Shown here one piece after another: positions 41,668-50,161 of a DNA stretch of 64,000 nucleotides. This stretch comes from Arthrobacter sp. MA-N2. Lineage in GTDB: Bacteria > Actinomycetota > Actinomycetes > Actinomycetales > Micrococcaceae. The notes beneath the pieces are model-generated. The model searched no databases and was not told the origin of the DNA. It was given only the letters and a program-made list of their open reading frames with translations. A program made the translations under genes and the position numbers. The stretch covers positions 559,707 through 623,706 of the forward strand of contig NZ_KI912155.1 in NCBI RefSeq assembly GCF_000517125.1, given 5' to 3'. Within the stretch, counting starts at the first letter, position 1. Each line of letters starts with the position of its first letter.

Positions 41668-42519
41668 CTAGATTTTGGTGACCTGGTTGAATGCGAGCGT
41701 AACCGGGGTTTCGCGTTCGAAGATCGACACGAGGACCACAAGGGTCTGGGATTCGACCTTGATCTCGGAGATCGTGGCGGGGAGGGTCTCGAACGGACCT
41801 TCCTTGACAATGACGGACTCTCCGACTTCGAAGTCGACGTCCACCGGCGTCTGGTGCTGCTTGTTGACCGGTTTGCCCTTCTCGGCCTGCTGCTCTTCGA
41901 AGATCGGTGCCAGCATGGAGAAGACCTCGTCGAGGCGCAACGGGACCGGGTTGTGGGCATTGCCCACGAAGCCGGTAACACCAGGAGTGTGGCGGACGGC
42001 GCCCCAAGACGCGTCGGTGAGGTCCATGCGGACTAGAACGTAACCCGGAATCCGCACGCGGTTGATGATCTTGCGCTGGGCGTTCTTGATCTCAACCACT
42101 TCCTCCATGGGCACCTGGATTTCGAAGATGTAATCTTCCATGTCCAGGGTCTGGATGCGGGTCTCAAGGTTGGCCTTGACGCGGTTTTCGTAGCCGGCGT
42201 AGGAGTGGATGACGTACCAGTCACCCTCCTGGCGGCGAAGCTTGGCCTTGAACTCCTCAGCGGGGTCGGCGGGCGCTACGGCGGCAGCGGCAGCCAGCGC
42301 GTCAGCGGACTCGGCCTCGTCGGACTCACCGTCGGCAGACTCGGCGTCGTCGGACTCTGCCTCGTCGGATTCGACAGACTCACCGTCGGCGTCGTCGGCA
42401 GTTTCGGGCGCAGCAGAATCGACCTCGGACCCTTCCACGGCGTCAGCCGTGGCGTGCGCCGTGCTTTCAGCGGACCCATCCAGCTCAGTCTCAGTTACCT
42501 CGAGCTCCTGCTCAGACAC
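41668..42519 (-). CDS. nusG: Transcription termination/antitermination protein NusG, with acidic N-terminal extension
   Basis: Couples RNA polymerase to Rho or the ribosome. It has 283 residues; the NGN domain starts at [20 protein letters not shown] near residue 98, and the KOW domain contains [20 protein letters not shown]. The first 90 residues are rich in Glu, Asp, Ser and Ala, with repeated SDEAES/DAESADG units, and must be disordered. The GTG at 42519 is preferred because AGGAG lies 5 nt upstream; an ATG 30 nt earlier has no site. It follows secE. Confidence 0.96.
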
Positions 42520-42632
42520 TTGGTCTCCTGCTTCCTCATTGCCTAACATGCCTATTTAAATGGCTCAATTCCGCAAACCCTGCAAAATCCCTTGATTTCC
42601 GGGGATTTCACGCGGTTTACGGAGCGATCCGC

Positions 42633-42914
42633 TTAGTGGTTCGTGCTACCAGTAGCGCCGAAGACCCATTTGATTCCCGTACCGAAAGCCAGGTCCAGGA
42701 TGGTGACGACGAGCATCATGATTGCCACGAACACCAGCACCACGACCGTGTAATTGACCAGTTCCTTACGGGTGGGCGCAACAACCTTCTTGAGCTCGCC
42801 AATTACCTGGCGAACAAAAAGTGCAATTCGAGCGAAGAAGCCGGAATCGGACTTCTTGGCAGGGCGGCCCTTCGAGCTGCTCGCAGCTGTTTCGGTCACC
42901 TGATCCTCACTCAT
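42633..42914 (-). CDS. secE: Preprotein translocase subunit SecE
   Basis: Clamps SecY. It has 93 residues: an N-terminal hydrophilic part, the amphipathic RIALFVRQVIGELKKVVAPT and a single membrane span VNYTVVVLVFVAIMMLVVTI. This single-span form is the usual one outside Gammaproteobacteria. It lies between tRNA-Trp and nusG. Confidence 0.96.
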   Translation of the reverse strand: MSEDQVTETAASSSKGRPAKKSDSGFFARIALFVRQVIGELKKVVAPTRKELVNYTVVVLVFVAIMMLVVTILDLAFGTGIKWVFGATGSTNH

Positions 42915-42996
42915 CTATGCAAACGTCGTTGACCCGACTCTGATCAGAGCCATGGTTGCTGCGCTTGTTCCGACGATTATTCCGGAACAGCTTGCG

Positions 42997-43069
42997 CAGG
43001 GCAGACAGGACTCGAACCTGCAACCTGCGGTTTTGGAGACCGCTGCGCTACCAATTGCGCCACTACCCT
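42997..43069 (-). tRNA. tRNA-Trp (CCA)
   Basis: The minus strand folds as a cloverleaf: acceptor AGGGTAG with CTGCCCT (one G-U pair), D-loop with AATTGGTAG, anticodon loop CTCCAAA with anticodon CCA, and T-loop TTCGAGT. The 3' CCA is not encoded; the discriminator base is G. tRNA-Trp upstream of secE-nusG is a common actinobacterial arrangement. Confidence 0.96.
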
Positions 43070-43189
43070 ATGGAACGAATCCACATTTTTGGCCACGCAC
43101 CGTAGAACCCGAGAAATCCCTGGCAACAGGATTCTCCGAACCCAGTCTGGGGCGCGAACCATTGTGATGTTTTTCAACACCGGTGAACC

Positions 43190-43219
43190 AGTCTACGCAA
43201 CAACGTCGCGATAGTCGAA
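43190..43219 (-). promoter_or_regulatory. Candidate promoter of tRNA-Trp-secE-nusG
   Basis: TAGACT (43195-43190) with TTCGAC (43219-43214) 18 bp upstream on the minus strand. The -10 equals the candidate -10 of tuf. The start site would lie about 115 nt ahead of the tRNA. Confidence 0.4.
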
Positions 43220-43408
43220 CCGGCTCATTCCGGAGTGTTCGGGCCGGCCCGCTCGTGTGATCAGCGCTTCGTTTGATCAGCCTGCTTGATCAACCTGCAC
43301 TGTCACTTTCCCGAGCTTAGCCCGATAGCTCCGCAGAACAGCATAAAGTAGATTCCGTCGAATCCCATCATCCAGCTCCTGAGCTGCCCGCGAAGAACGG
43401 TGCTTTAA

Positions 43409-44638
43409 ATGTCTGCCGGAATACCTGCCGCCCGCATTTCACAGCGAATTTCCGCCATCGCCGAATCCGCCACCCTTGCCGTTGACGCCAAGGCAAAGGC
43501 CCTCAAGGCGGCGGGTCGCCCCGTGATTGGTTTCGGCGCCGGGGAGCCCGACTTCCCGACACCGGACTATATCGTCAAGGCCGCCGTCGAGGCCGCCCCT
43601 CAGCCGAAGTACCACCGCTACTCCCCGGCAGCGGGCCTGCCGGAACTGAGGCAAGCCATCGCGGAGAAGACGTTCCGCGACTCCGGCTACAAGGTCGACG
43701 CTTCCCAGGTCCTGGTGACCAATGGCGGCAAGCAAGCGGTCTACAACACCTTCGCCACCCTGATTGACCCGGGCGATGAAGTCATTATCCCCACGCCGTT
43801 CTGGACCACCTACCCCGAGGCAATCCGCTTGGCCGGAGGCGTCCCTGTCGAGGTCTTCGCCGGCCCGGAGCAGGGTTACCTGGTCACGGTCGAGCAGCTC
43901 GAGGCCGCCGTCACGGACAGGTCCAAGATCCTGCTTTTCGTTTCCCCGTCCAACCCGACCGGCGCCGTCTACAGCGCCGAACAGGTAGCAGAGATCGGAA
44001 AGTGGGCGGCAGCGAAGGGCCTCTGGGTTGTCACCGACGAAATCTATGAGCACCTCACGTACGACGGCGTACCTTTCACCTCGATTGCCACTGCCGCCCC
44101 CGAGCTCGGGGACAAGGTGGTCATCCTCAACGGTGTCGCCAAGACCTACGCCATGACAGGATGGCGCGTCGGATGGATGATCGGCCCGGTTGACGTCATC
44201 AAGGCCGCCACCAATCTCCAGTCGCACTCGACCTCCAACGTCTCCAACATCATGCAGATCGCAGCCCTGGCAGCAGTGTCCGGGCCGCTGACCGCCGTCG
44301 ACGAGATGAAGGTCGCCTTCGACCGCCGCCGCAAGGCGATTGTTGCCGGACTGAACGCGATCGAGGGCGTGAAGTGCCCGACGCCGACCGGCGCCTTCTA
44401 CGTGTACGCGGACGTCCGCGCGCTGCTGGGCAAGGAATTCCCGACGTCGAACGGCCCGGTCCGCCCATCGACGTCGGCCGAGCTTGCCTCGCTGATCCTC
44501 GACGAAGTGGAGGTTGCCGTAGTTCCGGGCGAGGCCTTCGGCCCCTCGGGTTACTTGCGCCTCTCCTACGCTTTGGGCGACGAAGACCTCGCCGAAGGTG
44601 TCCGGCGCCTCCAGGAATTCCTGGGCCGGGCCAAGTAG
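43409..44638 (+). CDS. Pyridoxal-phosphate aminotransferase, aspartate aminotransferase type
   Basis: Class I aminotransferase of 409 residues, probably making aspartate/oxaloacetate. The cofactor Lys lies in [14 protein letters not shown], the phosphate and ring contacts are in [11 protein letters not shown] and [11 protein letters not shown], and the substrate Arg is in [12 protein letters not shown]-terminal [13 protein letters not shown] is typical of the thermostable-type subgroup. It is divergent from tRNA-Trp and closes at a strong bidirectional hairpin. The exact amino donor is inferred. Confidence 0.92.
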
Positions 44639-44721: not shown

Positions 44722-45411
44722 TCAGAGGAGGCGGCGCTCGGCAGCCCATCTTGTCAATTCGTGGCGGCTGGAGAGCTGCAGTTTGCGGAGAACCGCGGAG
44801 ACATGGGTTTCCACGGTCTTGATCGAGATGAACAGTTCCTTGGCCACCTCCTTGTAGCTGTAGCCACGGGCGATGAGGCGCATGACTTCCAGTTCCCGCG
44901 CGGAGAGGCGGTCGAGTTCGTCGTCGGCGATCTCCGCCGGGGAGGTCCCGAACGCGTCCAGGACGAAACCCGCCAGCCGCGGCGAGAAAACGGCGTCACC
45001 GTCGGCTACCCGGATCACGGCGTCGGAGATTTCGGGGCCGGAAATGGTCTTCGTGACATAGCCACGGGCCCCGGCCCGGATGACGGCCACGACGTCCTCG
45101 GCGGCATCTGAAACGCTCAATGCCAGGAAGCTCGTGCTCCCGATCAACTGAGAGCATGCACCGATGACTTCCCGACCGCCACCGCCAAGGCCGCCGGGCA
45201 AATGAACGTCAAGCAACACCACTTCCGGACGTACCTCGGAAATCACGGCAATGGCTTGCTCCACCGTTCCGGCTTCGCCCACCACGTCGATTCTCGAATC
45301 GAGATCGGCCTTGAGGCCGGAACGGAAGATGGCGTGGTCGTCCACGATCACCACCCGGACGGTCCTCTGTGCGGGTTCTGGCTGAATGTGCTCCGCGGGG
45401 CCACTCATCAT
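44722..45411 (-). CDS. NarL/LuxR-family response regulator
   Basis: Two-domain regulator, 229 residues. In the receiver the acidic pair is Asp24/Asp25, the phospho-acceptor is Asp68 in VLLDVHLPGG, and Lys121 is in YVTKTISGPE. The C-terminal LuxR helix-turn-helix starts at LSARELEVMRLIARGYSYKE. Its ATG overlaps the kinase stop by 4 nt, so it is the cognate partner of the PspC-containing kinase. The glycine stretch GGLGGGG after the phospho-site is unusual. Its likely target is the divergent PspC region. Confidence 0.94.
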   Translation of the reverse strand: MMSGPAEHIQPEPAQRTVRVVIVDDHAIFRSGLKADLDSRIDVVGEAGTVEQAIAVISEVRPEVVLLDVHLPGGLGGGGREVIGACSQLIGSTSFLALSVSDAAEDVVAVIRAGARGYVTKTISGPEISDAVIRVADGDAVFSPRLAGFVLDAFGTSPAEIADDELDRLSARELEVMRLIARGYSYKEVAKELFISIKTVETHVSAVLRKLQLSSRHELTRWAAERRLL

Positions 45412-46748
45412 CTGGTTTCTCCGTTTCGGTTCTCTGCTTTGTCCGCGTTCTCGGCGGGCAGTTTGAGGTGGACCTCAGTGCCCTCGGAGCTGCTGTTGAT
45501 GACCGCAGTGCCGCCGTGGCGCTTCATCCGTCCGATGATTGATTCCTTGACTCCGAGCCTGTCCTCCGGGACGGCGTCCGGGTCGAAGCCTGGTCCGCGG
45601 TCCCTGACAAAGACTTCGCTACCGGCATCCGAGCTCTCGAGATAGACCGACACGGCTCCGCCGCCGTGCCGGGCAGCATTGTGCATGGCCTCACGGGCCG
45701 CCAGGACCAGCGCTTCGTGCCGGTCCGTCATGGCGGCGTCTCCCACGCTGACAACGTCGACAGGGTGTCCGTGGGCGTCCTCCACTTCGGCTGCGGCCGC
45801 CGCGATCCGCTCAGCCAAGAGTCCTGCATCCTTGGCGGCATCCCGGTACAACCACGTACGCAGTTCGCGCTCCTGAGCCCGGGCGAGGCGGACCACGTCC
45901 TGTTCGGAGCCTGCCCGGCGCTGGATCAAGGCAAGCGTCTGCAGCACAGAGTCGTGCAGATGGGCAGCAATCTCCGCCCGCTCAGTCTCGCGAACACGCG
46001 CTGCGCGCTCGGTTTCAAGGTCTTTCCAGAATTTCAAGCCCCACGGCAGCAACACCAAGGCGACGCCACCCAACACGGCAATCGAAGCCAACAGCGCGAG
46101 CCATGTCTGCTCCCACGAGCCGGACCCGGACACCATGACCAACACGCCAGCAACCACCAGGGCCAGGCCTGCGGCGAGGCGGACCCAGCCACCGGCTTGG
46201 TCCGCTTTGGTCTTGTCCACCAATCCGGCCCGGCGCGACTCGTCCAGCTGCATCCAGGCGATCGCGGCCCCACCGAGAATGGCTGCCGCCGGGATCAGAG
46301 TGCCGAGAGGGACATCGACGCCGAACTGCCGGGCGATAAGGATTGCGGCCACCAAGAGGAGGCCGGCTCCCAAGAGGAACTCCTTCCAGTACTGGATGCG
46401 CCGCGTCCTGAACCACGAGGCGAAGACGGGAGCGGGGGTGGCCAACGGTTGCGGCGCCGGACCGGCACCCGGCGCACGGCCACCGTATGGGGGGATGCTC
46501 ACCGAAGGAGCAATGGGCGACGTCGGCCGGCGGCTATTGCGGCGGGCACTTTCGTCGACAGTGGGTACCATGACCCAGAGCCAGGCGTAGAGGGCCAGGC
46601 CTGCGCCCCCGGCGAACGAGGCAAGGACCATGCCGAGCCGGATGTACTTCACGGGCCAGCCAAGGTGATCGGCCAGGCCGCTGCAGACGCCCGCAATCAT
46701 CCGGTCGCTGCTGCGGACCAGTGCCGGGCGTTGCGTGGCGGTTGTCAT
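45408..46748 (-). CDS. Sensor histidine kinase with N-terminal PspC domain
   Basis: Membrane kinase of 446 residues. A PspC domain (residues about 8-63, with SDRMIAGVCSGLADHLGWPV) contains the first membrane helix. A Pro-rich linker, a further set of about four membrane helices (125-237) and a HisKA_3 dimerisation domain follow, with phospho-acceptor His265 in AEIAAHLHDSVLQTL. The ATPase domain shows ALVLAAREAMHNAARHG and RDRGPGFDPDAVPEDRLGVK. ATG at 46748 has GGATGGA upstream. This architecture suggests a LiaS/DesK-like sensor of membrane state. Confidence 0.92.
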   Translation of the reverse strand: MTTATQRPALVRSSDRMIAGVCSGLADHLGWPVKYIRLGMVLASFAGGAGLALYAWLWVMVPTVDESARRNSRRPTSPIAPSVSIPPYGGRAPGAGPAPQPLATPAPVFASWFRTRRIQYWKEFLLGAGLLLVAAILIARQFGVDVPLGTLIPAAAILGGAAIAWMQLDESRRAGLVDKTKADQAGGWVRLAAGLALVVAGVLVMVSGSGSWEQTWLALLASIAVLGGVALVLLPWGLKFWKDLETERAARVRETERAEIAAHLHDSVLQTLALIQRRAGSEQDVVRLARAQERELRTWLYRDAAKDAGLLAERIAAAAAEVEDAHGHPVDVVSVGDAAMTDRHEALVLAAREAMHNAARHGGGAVSVYLESSDAGSEVFVRDRGPGFDPDAVPEDRLGVKESIIGRMKRHGGTAVINSSSEGTEVHLKLPAENADKAENRNGETR

Positions 46749-46799
46749 GAATCCATCCAAACACGTATCAGGGGCCTTCGGCGCTGGAAGAAGAGCATC

Positions 46800-46828
46800 T
46801 CAGGGGGGCACTCAGGGAACGTTCAGGG
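46800..46828. promoter_or_regulatory. Three TCAGGG repeats in the divergent PspC promoter
   Basis: TCAGGG occurs at 46800-46805, 46812-46817 and 46823-46828, with 12- and 11-bp steps, so all lie on one face of the helix. The array sits between the kinase gene and the divergent PspC operon. It is a candidate binding site for the response regulator. Confidence 0.4.
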
Positions 46829-46874
46829 TATCCCCCAATAGAGGGAGCACGTCGCCAGGCGGCAAGATCGAAGT

Positions 46875-48341
46875 ATGAACGCGAACAGCATGAATCCAGA
46901 GGACCCCGGACAAGCCCCGGGGCCCGACCAAGCTGCAGAATCCAGCCAGCCGGCCGGGACAGGCGTACCGGAAGAACCGGCCCAGCCAAGCGAAGGCAAT
47001 ACCGGCGGCGCCGCACCGGACTACGCCGTGCCCGCTCCGGACTATGCCGCGCCCGCTCCGCCGCAGAACTTTTTCACCTGGATTCGCAGCCAAGGGATCA
47101 GCCGCGGTCAGGACCGGTGGATAGGCGGTGTGGCGAGCGGAATCGCGCACCGATTTGGTATCGATCCTTTGATCGTCCGCGGCATCTTCATCGTCCTGAC
47201 CCTCTTCGCCGGCATCGGCATCCTGCTCTACGGCCTCGCTTGGGCTCTCCTGCCCGAACCCGATGGCCGCATCCACGCCCAAGAGGCCGGGGCTGGCAGG
47301 TGGTCCGCAGGCATGACTGGAGCCGTCATCACCACCATCGTCGGATTGCCAAGCCTTGGCCACGGTTTCTGGGGATGGGGATGGAACGGCCTTCCGGGTC
47401 TGTTCTGGGCGCTGTTCTGGGTAGGCGGCATCATCTACCTGGTCTATTTCCTGGTCCAGCGCAACAAGTCCCGCAATGGAAGACAGACCATGAGCACCCA
47501 CCCTTATGCGCCCGCTCCAGGTTCCCACGGCGGAAGCTACGGAGCGCAGAGCACCTCCTACGAACCCAGCGGGATGGGCTACGGTGCAGTGCCGCCGTCG
47601 GGCGCTGGCTATTCAGCGCCGCCCACCACCGGACAGTACGGCACGAGTAGTGCATACGGGGCTGACCCATACCTACCGGCCGGCGCACATCACAGGCCCG
47701 CACGGCCGAAACGGCAGGGACCGGGCGCAGCAATCGTTACCGTCTCCGCGGGGGCAGCCCTGCTGGCCGGCGGAACCCTCAAACTGCTCGACGTCGGCAA
47801 CGTCATCCAACTCGGCGACGCCGCCAACGCGGTGGTCTGGGCCACGGGCGCCGGAGTCCTCGGACTGGGCATCCTGGTTGCGGGGCTTCGTGGCCGAACT
47901 TCCGGGCTGCTGGGATTCCTCGCCGTTGCGACGCTGGTCATCGGCGGAATCTTCAATATCGCCCCCAACCCGAACCAATTCCACTTGCAGTCCGGTCAAT
48001 GGAACCCCGTGAGCATCGACGATGCCCGCAAGGGTTTCGACCTCACCGGAGCCAATGGGACGGTCGACCTGAGCAAACTCAACCTGACGGCACCGCTGAG
48101 CTCCGACGTCGTGGTTCCGATGGATGTGACGGTAAGCAACATCAGGCTCCTCATCCCGACGACCGTGCCGGTGGAGGTCCAAGCAGACATGACCTTCGCG
48201 AACCTCAAGCAGGACGGTAGCGCAGTGACCCAAAGCAACGGCGTTACCCGGGACAGCTTCAACACGGATAAACCCGGCGCCAAGCTGATCGTCAGGCTCA
48301 ACGGCGCCTTCAGCAACGTCACCGTCCAGGAAGGAAACTGA
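46875..48341 (+). CDS. PspC-domain membrane protein with C-terminal extracytoplasmic domain
   Basis: A 488-residue protein. After a disordered Pro/Ala-rich N-terminus, a PspC domain (about 75-130, RWIGGVASGIAHRFGID) is followed by membrane segments, a Gly/Tyr/Ser/Pro-rich linker (YAPAPGSHGGSYGAQSTSY) and, near residue 285 onward, three more membrane spans and a soluble C-terminal domain of about 120 residues like the LiaF/DUF2154 adhesin-like fold. It is divergent from the kinase and heads an operon with a two-span protein and a short PspC protein. Its likely role is regulator or target of the envelope-stress system. Confidence 0.85.
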   Translation: MNANSMNPEDPGQAPGPDQAAESSQPAGTGVPEEPAQPSEGNTGGAAPDYAVPAPDYAAPAPPQNFFTWIRSQGISRGQDRWIGGVASGIAHRFGIDPLIVRGIFIVLTLFAGIGILLYGLAWALLPEPDGRIHAQEAGAGRWSAGMTGAVITTIVGLPSLGHGFWGWGWNGLPGLFWALFWVGGIIYLVYFLVQRNKSRNGRQTMSTHPYAPAPGSHGGSYGAQSTSYEPSGMGYGAVPPSGAGYSAPPTTGQYGTSSAYGADPYLPAGAHHRPARPKRQGPGAAIVTVSAGAALLAGGTLKLLDVGNVIQLGDAANAVVWATGAGVLGLGILVAGLRGRTSGLLGFLAVATLVIGGIFNIAPNPNQFHLQSGQWNPVSIDDARKGFDLTGANGTVDLSKLNLTAPLSSDVVVPMDVTVSNIRLLIPTTVPVEVQADMTFANLKQDGSAVTQSNGVTRDSFNTDKPGAKLIVRLNGAFSNVTVQEGN

Positions 48342-48342
48342 C

Positions 48343-48651
48343 ATGAGCACGCACGAGCCCACACGGGCGTTTGAACCGGTACCCGCGTCCCCACCTGAGC
48401 CCTTGGCGCAGTCTGCCCGGGCCAGGGTCGGCACCGTGGTCTGGGGACTGATTATCCTGGCCCTCGCAGCCCTCATCATCATTTCGAAACTCGGCCTCGT
48501 GGCCCTCAACAGCAACTACGTGCTGATCGGGCTAATGATCGGGGCGGGCGCGGCACTTGTGATCGGAGGCTTGATGTCAGCCCGCTCCCGCAAGGGCAGC
48601 GGGTCTGCCCCGGAGCCCGGGTCCAGCACCACCAATCCTGACCATCACTAG
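48343..48651 (+). CDS. Small two-span membrane protein
   Basis: A 102-residue protein with two predicted helices (VVWGLIILALAALIIISKLG and YVLIGLMIGAGAALVIGGLM) flanked by Pro-rich and Ser/Gly-rich ends. It begins 1 nt after the stop of the PspC protein, so the two are coupled. It resembles LiaI-type helper proteins in layout; function is inferred from context only. Confidence 0.8.
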   Translation: MSTHEPTRAFEPVPASPPEPLAQSARARVGTVVWGLIILALAALIIISKLGLVALNSNYVLIGLMIGAGAALVIGGLMSARSRKGSGSAPEPGSSTTNPDHH

Positions 48652-48696
48652 CAACCGGCACGTGACAAAGCGGCCACAACAGGGAAGGCTCTAGCC

Positions 48697-48942
48697 ATGA
48701 ACAAGTTCTTCAGCATCGTACGGGGCATGGGCCTGAAGCGCGGACCGCAGCGTTGGCTCGGAGGAGTTTGCGGTGGCGTTGCCGCCAAACTGAATGTAGA
48801 CGTAGCCTATGTCCGCGTCGGCTACCTGCTCTTCTGCCTTCTACCCGGTCCTGCCGTGGTGATCTACGTGGTGGCGTGGCTTCTGCTTCCCAACCAGAAC
48901 GGCACCATTGCGCTGGAATCTTTCCTCAACCGCCGCTCGTAA
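48697..48942 (+). CDS. Short PspC-domain protein
   Basis: An 81-residue stand-alone PspC protein with RWLGGVCGGVAAKLNVDVAY, a single hydrophobic segment LLFCLLPGPAVVIYVVAWLL and the ending NQNGTIALESF. It lies 45 nt after the preceding gene and completes the third PspC domain of this locus. A GC-rich hairpin follows. Confidence 0.88.
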   Translation: MNKFFSIVRGMGLKRGPQRWLGGVCGGVAAKLNVDVAYVRVGYLLFCLLPGPAVVIYVVAWLLLPNQNGTIALESFLNRRS

Positions 48943-48958: not shown

Positions 48959-48988
48959 AGCCGGCCCGGCAGGTTCACTGGGCCGGCT
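48959..48988 (+). terminator. Hairpin after the PspC operon
   Basis: AGCCGGCCC (48959-48967) pairs with GGGCCGGCT (48980-48988). There is only CTTC after it, so terminator strength is uncertain. Confidence 0.5.
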
Positions 48989-49135: not shown

Positions 49136-50161
49136 ATGAAAATTGGAATCCTTACCAGCGGTGGCGACTGCCCCGGACTAAACGCCGTCATCCGTGGCGC
49201 CGTGCTCAAGGGAATTGCCATCCACGGCCAGGAATTCGTCGGTTTCCGGGATGGGTGGCGCGGCGTCGTGGAGGGTGACGTCATCGACATTCCCCGCACC
49301 ATGGTCCGCGGCATCGCCAAACAGGGCGGAACCATCCTTGGCACCTCCCGCACCAACCCGTTTGAGAACGGCGGCGGCCCGGAGGTCATCAAGGGCCACA
49401 TGGACCGTCTGGGCATCGATGCCATCATTGCCATCGGAGGGGAAGGCACCCTGGCCGCCGCGAAGCGCCTCACCGACGCCGGGCTGAAAATCGTCGGCGT
49501 TCCCAAGACAGTGGACAACGACCTCGACGCCACCGACTACACCTTCGGTTTCGACACCGCCGTCCAAATCGCCACCGAGGCCATCGATCGGCTACGCACC
49601 ACCGGAGAATCGCACCACCGCTGCATGATCGCCGAGGTCATGGGCCGGCACGTAGGCTGGATCGCCCTGCACGCCGGGATGGCAGCTGGCGCACACGCCA
49701 TCCTGATCCCCGAGCAAAAGGTCAGCATCGAGCAGGTCACCGAGTGGGTTCAGGAGGCCCACGACCGTGGCCGGGCGCCGTTGATTGTTGTTGCCGAAGG
49801 TTTCGTCCCGGACCACATGGAGGCTCCGCATTCCGAACGCGGCCTCGACACCTTCGGCCGTCCCCGTCTGGGTGGCATCGCGGACCAGCTCGCTCCGGAA
49901 ATCGAAGCCCGCACCGGCATCGAGACCCGTGCCACCATCCTGGGCCACATCCAGCGCGGCGGCGTGCCCTCAGCCTTCGATCGGGTCCTGGCCACCCGCC
50001 TGGGCATGGCCGCCATCGATTCCGTCGTCGAAGGCCGCTGGGGAACCATGGTGGCCCTCAAAGGCACGGACATCGAACATGTGGGCTTCGAAGCCGCCTT
50101 GGGCAAACTCAAGACCGTCCCGCAGAACCGGTACGACGAAGCCGCGGTGTTGTTCGGCTAA
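49136..50161 (+). CDS. pfkA: 6-phosphofructokinase
   Basis: Phosphorylates fructose 6-phosphate in glycolysis, 341 residues. Motifs: nucleotide loop GGDCPGLNAVIRG at 9-21, GGEGT at 101-105, and the catalytic PKTVDNDLDATDYTFGFDTA at 123-142. Gly104 favours ATP over pyrophosphate; Lys124 replaces the Gly124 of E. coli PfkA. This Gly104/Lys124 combination is known from actinobacterial ATP-dependent enzymes. It stands alone with a candidate -10 upstream and a hairpin after it. Confidence 0.94.
   Translation: MKIGILTSGGDCPGLNAVIRGAVLKGIAIHGQEFVGFRDGWRGVVEGDVIDIPRTMVRGIAKQGGTILGTSRTNPFENGGGPEVIKGHMDRLGIDAIIAIGGEGTLAAAKRLTDAGLKIVGVPKTVDNDLDATDYTFGFDTAVQIATEAIDRLRTTGESHHRCMIAEVMGRHVGWIALHAGMAAGAHAILIPEQKVSIEQVTEWVQEAHDRGRAPLIVVAEGFVPDHMEAPHSERGLDTFGRPRLGGIADQLAPEIEARTGIETRATILGHIQRGGVPSAFDRVLATRLGMAAIDSVVEGRWGTMVALKGTDIEHVGFEAALGKLKTVPQNRYDEAAVLFG

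Follow-up and report, generated by a model that had tools for sequence, protein, structure and literature searches.

A probable EsrISR-type envelope-stress locus with a conserved TCAGGG repeat in Arthrobacter sp. MA-N2

A five-gene divergent locus was analyzed in a 64,000-nucleotide stretch of the Arthrobacter sp. MA-N2 genome (contig NZ_KI912155.1, positions 559,707 to 623,706; hereafter the window, to which bare position numbers refer). A histidine kinase and a response regulator are encoded on its minus strand, and proteins of 488, 102 and 81 residues on its plus strand (46875-48942). The initial annotation had placed a two-component locus at 45408-48942; the two-component system was indeed found, but its regulator gene (44722-45411) lies outside that span. 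The features are listed below and are named after the EsrISR system of Corynebacterium glutamicum, with which the locus is compared.

45408..46760, minus strand: EsrS-type histidine kinase with an N-terminal PspC domain, about four further membrane segments, an LHDSVLQ region and a HATPase domain.
44722..45411, minus strand: EsrR-type LuxR/NarL response regulator, classed from its Pfam domains and a 57% identical counterpart in C. glutamicum.
46875..48341, plus strand: EsrI-type membrane protein of 488 residues with PspC at 79-128, further membrane segments and a predicted LiaF-like Toastrack domain at about 370-487.
48343..48651, plus strand: 102-residue protein with two membrane spans, starting one base past the esrI stop; no family above cut-off in Pfam or NCBIfam.
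48697..48942, plus strand: 81-residue stand-alone PspC protein (Pfam PspC at 17-66), similar in size and domain to a 74-residue C. glutamicum PspC frame.
46812..46828, plus strand: predicted operator TCAGGG-N5-TCAGGG, conserved in divergent promoters and ending 47 bp short of the A of the esrI start codon (ATG), with an extra TCAGGG at 46800-46805.
46748..46773, no strand: conserved block spanning the kinase start and the bases just before it, containing TCAGGG at 46768-46773 and seen as conserved columns in the promoter alignment.
48959..48988, plus strand: inverted repeat AGCCGGCCC...GGGCCGGCT beyond the final gene, read by eye from the sequence; possibly the end of the operon.

The kinase and regulator genes overlap by 4 base pairs (bp), the regulator start lying over the kinase stop, and 45 bp separate the genes for the 102- and 81-residue proteins. 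The gap between the kinase gene and the 488-residue gene is 114 bp when the kinase is started at TTG 46760 and 126 bp when it is started at ATG 46748, which may be the actual start. The block at 46748-46773 was ATCCAAACACGGATCAGGGT-like in most genus loci and could belong to the kinase promoter or leader. A PspC-bearing kinase facing two further PspC proteins and a two-span protein had been proposed in the initial annotation, and this was borne out by Pfam: with a cut-off of 25 bits, PspC (PF04024) matched the kinase at residues 14-66 (67 bits), the 488-residue protein (68.8 bits) and the 81-residue protein (63.7 bits), and two hydrophobic stretches were present in the 102-residue protein. No PspC domain beyond these three was obtained in a whole-genome search at E <= 0.001. 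The genome holds one PspA_IM30 match, at C1:303852, about 300 kilobases (kb) from the locus (C1:604400-608700), and no PspA-family gene adjoining the kinase was seen in the genome search or among the window reading frames.

The kinase exceeded the Pfam cut-offs of HATPase_c and HATPase_c_2, and its HisKA_3 match was weak (16.5 bits versus a cut-off of 24). The phospho-acceptor motif LHDSVLQ contains His269 (numbered from TTG 46760), the N-box contains Asn361, and the LHDSVLQ region aligned with the motif around His250 of C. glutamicum EsrS. Response_reg and GerE were both above the Pfam cut-off in the regulator, with Asp68 as acceptor. Membership of MacRS/MadRS was rejected, both NCBIfam models being under their cut-offs (MacS 97.6/300 bits, MadR 152.7/300 bits).

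In PMC3353115, CgtS7/Cg0707 is given as a protein of 423 residues with PspC at 47-107 and a phosphorylated His250. The EsrS frame that served as our reference has 423 residues and His250 and lies near a guaA-like frame, so that its genome was taken, by inference, as C. glutamicum; this species is not among the 80 of 544 confirmed loci listed in the genome-contig scan. The two kinases were reciprocal best hits (E 7.8e-49 and 1.2e-48) with 34% identity over 430 columns. BLAST aligned the 488-residue protein with C. glutamicum EsrI around the PspC domain only (E 4e-9); PspC together with a LiaF-like C-terminus is common to both EsrI families, and in both the gene diverges from that of the kinase. 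PMC6975037 lists esrI (cg0706) as the inhibitor of EsrSR, counts cg1325 and rsmP in the Esr regulon and names bacitracin and vancomycin as its activators. The two systems share a PspC-fused kinase, a LuxR-type regulator and a divergent, here putative, inhibitor with PspC and LiaF-like parts, and the C. glutamicum regulon also includes a small stand-alone PspC gene, cg1325. They differ in that the window carries its small PspC and two-span genes within the esrI operon, whereas the small PspC gene of C. glutamicum lies elsewhere. Judged from its sequence, the locus belongs to this known type of three-component system and carries two small genes in addition.

A comparison with LiaF structures had been suggested in the initial annotation, which had missed the C-terminal domain of the 488-residue protein. 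The window protein alone stayed under the cut-off of PF09922 (LiaF C-terminus), so the case for a Toastrack domain is carried by its relatives, a profile and the fold. PF09922 was matched by 16 of 25 relatives at E <= 0.01 and, above its cut-off, by C. glutamicum EsrI (35.8 bits), and a profile built from the 25 sequences matched PDB 4QRK (E 1.1e-9), a structure cited in PMC11237479 as an instance of Toastrack. The same structure was the sole Foldseek match at E <= 0.001 for the modelled C-terminal domain (E 5.6e-4), and in the first row of the VIA comparison, the one used here, it gave Z 9.0 and a root-mean-square deviation of 2.8 over 106 aligned residues. The predicted local distance difference test (pLDDT) of this domain was mostly 80-92, falling to 65-68 at 441-460; outside it the full-length model is poor (mean pLDDT 61, predicted template modelling score 0.34). 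Sequence and model together identify residues of about 370-487 as a LiaF-type Toastrack domain. Because the relatives, the profile and the fold all match the LiaF-type domain, the 488-residue protein is best read, by analogy with EsrI and LiaF, as an inhibitor partner and not as a target of the system, which is what both divergent PspC proteins had been taken to be in the initial annotation.

Of the 59 genomes in the relatives set, 57 gave a match to the kinase; among 396 genomes sampled across the phylum, at least 91 did so at E <= 1e-20 (both counts include our own genome; the second is a lower bound, as the first search step scores few candidates). Kinase relatives are thus widespread in the phylum, whereas the experimental work that we found concerns one species. 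All five genes were present in each of the 23 genus loci examined (drawn from 36 genus genomes besides our own), which argues that the arrangement is not due to chance. Among 17 loci from 22 genomes of the order outside the genus, kinase and regulator occurred in all 17, a PspC domain in the kinase frame in 16, and the neighbouring PspC protein on the opposite strand as a closed frame in 16; in L038, which is cut by the contig end, the neighbouring PspC frame was still visible in the promoter alignment. The layout was divergent in 18 of 20 phylum loci, the exceptions being L087, which is co-directional, and L092, which has no visible PspC or regulator.

A relative of the 102-residue protein was present in 23/23 genus loci and in 5 of the 17 loci from other families of the order; the 81-residue PspC gene was likewise found in 23/23 genus loci, and one of the 17 carried a comparable small PspC downstream of its divergent gene. 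The retention of kinase and regulator across the order and of the divergent layout across the phylum indicates an old core of kinase, regulator and divergent PspC gene, to which the small PspC gene within the esrI operon looks like a late addition. In a PspC tree (52 columns, no support values; kinases L040, L047 and L084 mistakenly carry the label I), the 81-residue sequences grouped with EsrI-type domains, near the small PspC of C. glutamicum and apart from most kinase PspC domains. This small C. glutamicum PspC, the 74-residue frame, sits between MarR-like and Crp-like frames, and from the gene order we take it to be cg1325. As cg1325 resembles the 81-residue protein and is counted to the Esr regulon, the 81-residue protein may, by analogy, be a target of the system, and to this extent the earlier view of the divergent PspC proteins holds.

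We consider it very probable that the locus is an EsrISR-type three-component envelope-stress system that works in the following way. In the absence of stress, the membrane protein EsrI, with its PspC domain, membrane segments and cytoplasmic Toastrack, would keep the PspC-fused EsrS inactive. A disturbed lipid II cycle or membrane would cause EsrI to release EsrS, which would autophosphorylate at His269, and from there the phosphate would go to Asp68 of EsrR, the LuxR-type regulator. Phosphorylated EsrR would then occupy the TCAGGG half-sites of the divergent promoter, a direct repeat with an 11-bp period, and raise expression of its own inhibitor operon (EsrI, the two-span protein and the small PspC) as negative feedback, and it would also raise protective genes elsewhere, which encode a transporter of the ABC-2 type and a membrane protein of the YccF family. 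Gene content, orthology, domains and the conservation of locus and repeat were computed, and the inhibitor role of EsrI and the inducers come from the C. glutamicum work; we infer the binding of EsrR to the repeat, its activating effect and the mode of EsrI-EsrS contact. Control of the kinase by a homotypic PspC-PspC contact, as conjectured in the initial annotation, is hypothetical.

Alignment of the divergent promoters of the genus revealed conserved blocks, chiefly TCAGGG-N5-TCAGGG. Oriented toward esrI, this repeat was found in all 24 loci of the genus and window, in 12 of 16 order loci and in 3 of 18 phylum loci (L045, L087 and L092 are excluded from promoter counts, since their PspC pair could not be placed), compared with at most 0.007 repeats expected per group from 300 Markov shuffles. 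In most other loci the divergent promoter retained TCAGGG half-sites at one spacing or another. Six of 16 Corynebacterium promoters carried TCAGGG-N4-CCCTGA in place of the N5 repeat, and the presumed C. glutamicum esr promoter (L179, 5477-5833) differs from that of the window in having TCAGGG-N4-CCCTGA followed by a third TCAGGG; upstream of the small PspC gene of C. glutamicum there is a TCAGGG, a degenerate second half-site and CCCCGAT. The distance from the repeat end to the start codon was 46-47 bp at the window esrI, at the yccF gene of the same genome and at 12 of 13 fetched yccF genes, and 62 bp at the yccF of L267. The repeat is likely the operator of the regulator encoded at the locus. 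Its conservation makes the control targets directly testable in many genera.

The exact repeat occurred at four places in the genome (six overlapping matches), among them the esrI promoter and the following three, which lie upstream of a yccF gene and of ATP-binding cassette (ABC) transporter genes.

G000:C1:1093060-1093076 (L215:3561-3577), minus strand: exact repeat 46 bp before a 133-residue YccF-family gene (PF03733, 125 bits).
G000:C2:444202-444229 (L217): three half-sites with an 11-bp period, situated 83 bp in front of paired ABC ATPase and permease genes and pointing away from them.
G000:C1:3047769-3047796 (L216): three half-sites with an 11-bp period, situated about 196 bp in front of paired ABC ATPase and permease genes and pointing to them.

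A second, divergent ABC ATPase lies on the other side of the L216 repeat. One-mismatch repeats in the same genome (32 of 38 matches) were set aside as apparent background, the reversed control giving 17 at the same tolerance. In a scan of 16 of the 36 genus genomes, 80 exact repeats were obtained versus one for the reversed pattern. They were located upstream of esrI in 16/16 genomes, of the L217-type ABC-2-type transporter in 15/16 and of yccF in at least 13/16, and the 80 matches divided into 16 at esrI, 27 (15 places) at the ABC transporter, 13 at YccF and 24 others; 12 of these others were examined and most lay inside long reading frames, and the further 12 include a G024 match that might be an additional YccF case. 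Across these genomes the repeat-linked genes were 67-94% identical for the ATPase, mostly 37-42% for the permease and 83-92% for YccF. At the conserved transporter the repeat lies 75-106 bp from the start, and the gene on its other side is convergent. The ATPases were above the ABC_tran cut-off and the permeases were just under those of the ABC-2 families (20.2/31.6 and 26.1/27 bits); we presume the transporter to be BcrA-like. The founding EsrISR paper reportedly places a bacitracin-resistance ABC transporter in the Esr regulon. The C. glutamicum genes cg3322-3320 were not located in 40 kb (L292 and L293, their place guessed from gene numbers), where the only ABC match was short, incomplete and at the edge, and no composite or repeat site was seen. 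In G002, TCAGGGCGTTCTCAGGG occurs four times with one near copy (five places) and possibly represents a repeated element and not regulatory sites.

The conservation of the repeat probably marks genes under control of the system. It is about an even call whether regulators across the order read a TCAGGG array of 11-bp period and govern a small fixed core regulon made up of their own inhibitor operon, the ABC-2-type transporter and YccF; the 81-residue protein would then act either as a membrane effector or as a second PspC, lacking Toastrack, in competition with EsrI for the kinase. If this is true, the widespread protein YccF, so far without a known role, would take its place among the responders to envelope stress, and the operator, if it is that of the regulator, would connect two orphan membrane genes with such stress.

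Several observations weigh against the EsrISR interpretation or its parts. The 488-residue protein reached 12.8 bits with PF09922 versus a cut-off of 29; the PspC tree has only 52 columns and places the kinase domains of L037, L038, L042 and L044 on the EsrI side; the N5 direct repeat is missing in 16/16 Corynebacterium and 15/18 phylum promoters; at the conserved ABC transporter the repeat is oriented away from the gene; and the pspA paralogue of C. glutamicum that we took for rsmP (L291, identified from position), a stated member of the Esr regulon in PMC6975037, has single half-sites near its start and no direct repeat. The different spacing in Corynebacterium, the reversed orientation at the transporter and the rsmP-like gene also favour the idea that the repeat serves a different regulator of envelope genes. 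We regard this as unlikely though worth keeping in mind, as the repeat recurs in the esrI promoter throughout the genus and in most order loci, and its half-sites persist at some spacing in most other divergent promoters.

It is less probable still that both divergent PspC proteins are membrane-stabilizing effectors, like PspC/PspA of Escherichia coli, with the kinase PspC sensing the same signal and no inhibitor involved. A pspA gene does exist elsewhere in the genome, and membership of cg1325 in the Esr regulon (PMC6975037) makes the small PspC gene a plausible effector; however, the 488-residue protein matches the listed inhibitor EsrI in place and architecture and has a LiaF-type domain, and pspA is distant, its 3.7-kb locus (L094) containing single half-sites only and no direct repeat. 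The PspABC/PspF system of E. coli shares the PspC domain with the window locus, which differs in having no adjacent PspA, and neither PspB nor PspF was recognized by eye among the window reading frames.

The LiaFSR-like layout with a PspC-fused sensor described in the initial annotation was correct. The likeness to LiaFSR of Bacillus subtilis lies in the three-component logic and in a membrane inhibitor ending in the LiaF C-terminal (Toastrack) domain, and the difference in the PspA-family target, which is not in the window locus. To our knowledge, LiaS and LiaF of that system have no PspC domain. A LiaFSR system proper that gained PspC domains is improbable: its LiaF-type C-terminus, LuxR-class regulator and NCBIfam Strep_LiaS match (a model built for streptococci; 16.8 bits, far under the cut-off of 450, E 0.0031) are outweighed by the lack of a PspA-family gene in the locus, the clear EsrSR orthologues and the description in PMC9239133 of PspC-fused kinases as a trait of Actinobacteria. 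According to the same paper, a histidine kinase domain is present in more than half of the PspC proteins of Actinobacteria that exceed 300 residues, and PMC11237479 describes this very arrangement in Actinobacteria as a 'Lia-like system without PspA', with Toastrack in some members; the section describing it mentions neither the two small genes nor an operator. The idea of a novel type of PspC signalling locus was thus rejected, the layout being published and a worked example known. What is added here to a layout that is not new is the conserved TCAGGG landmark and the candidate regulon, which were not found in the literature searched, although the founding EsrISR paper may contain them; the system is ordinary, and the regulon prediction is the useful part.

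As to the surroundings of the locus (neighbours at 41668-44638 / 49136-50161), one flank holds nusG-like and secE-like frames, recognized by eye, together with tRNA-Trp and an aminotransferase-like frame, and a phosphofructokinase-like frame, also recognized by eye, lies on the opposite flank.

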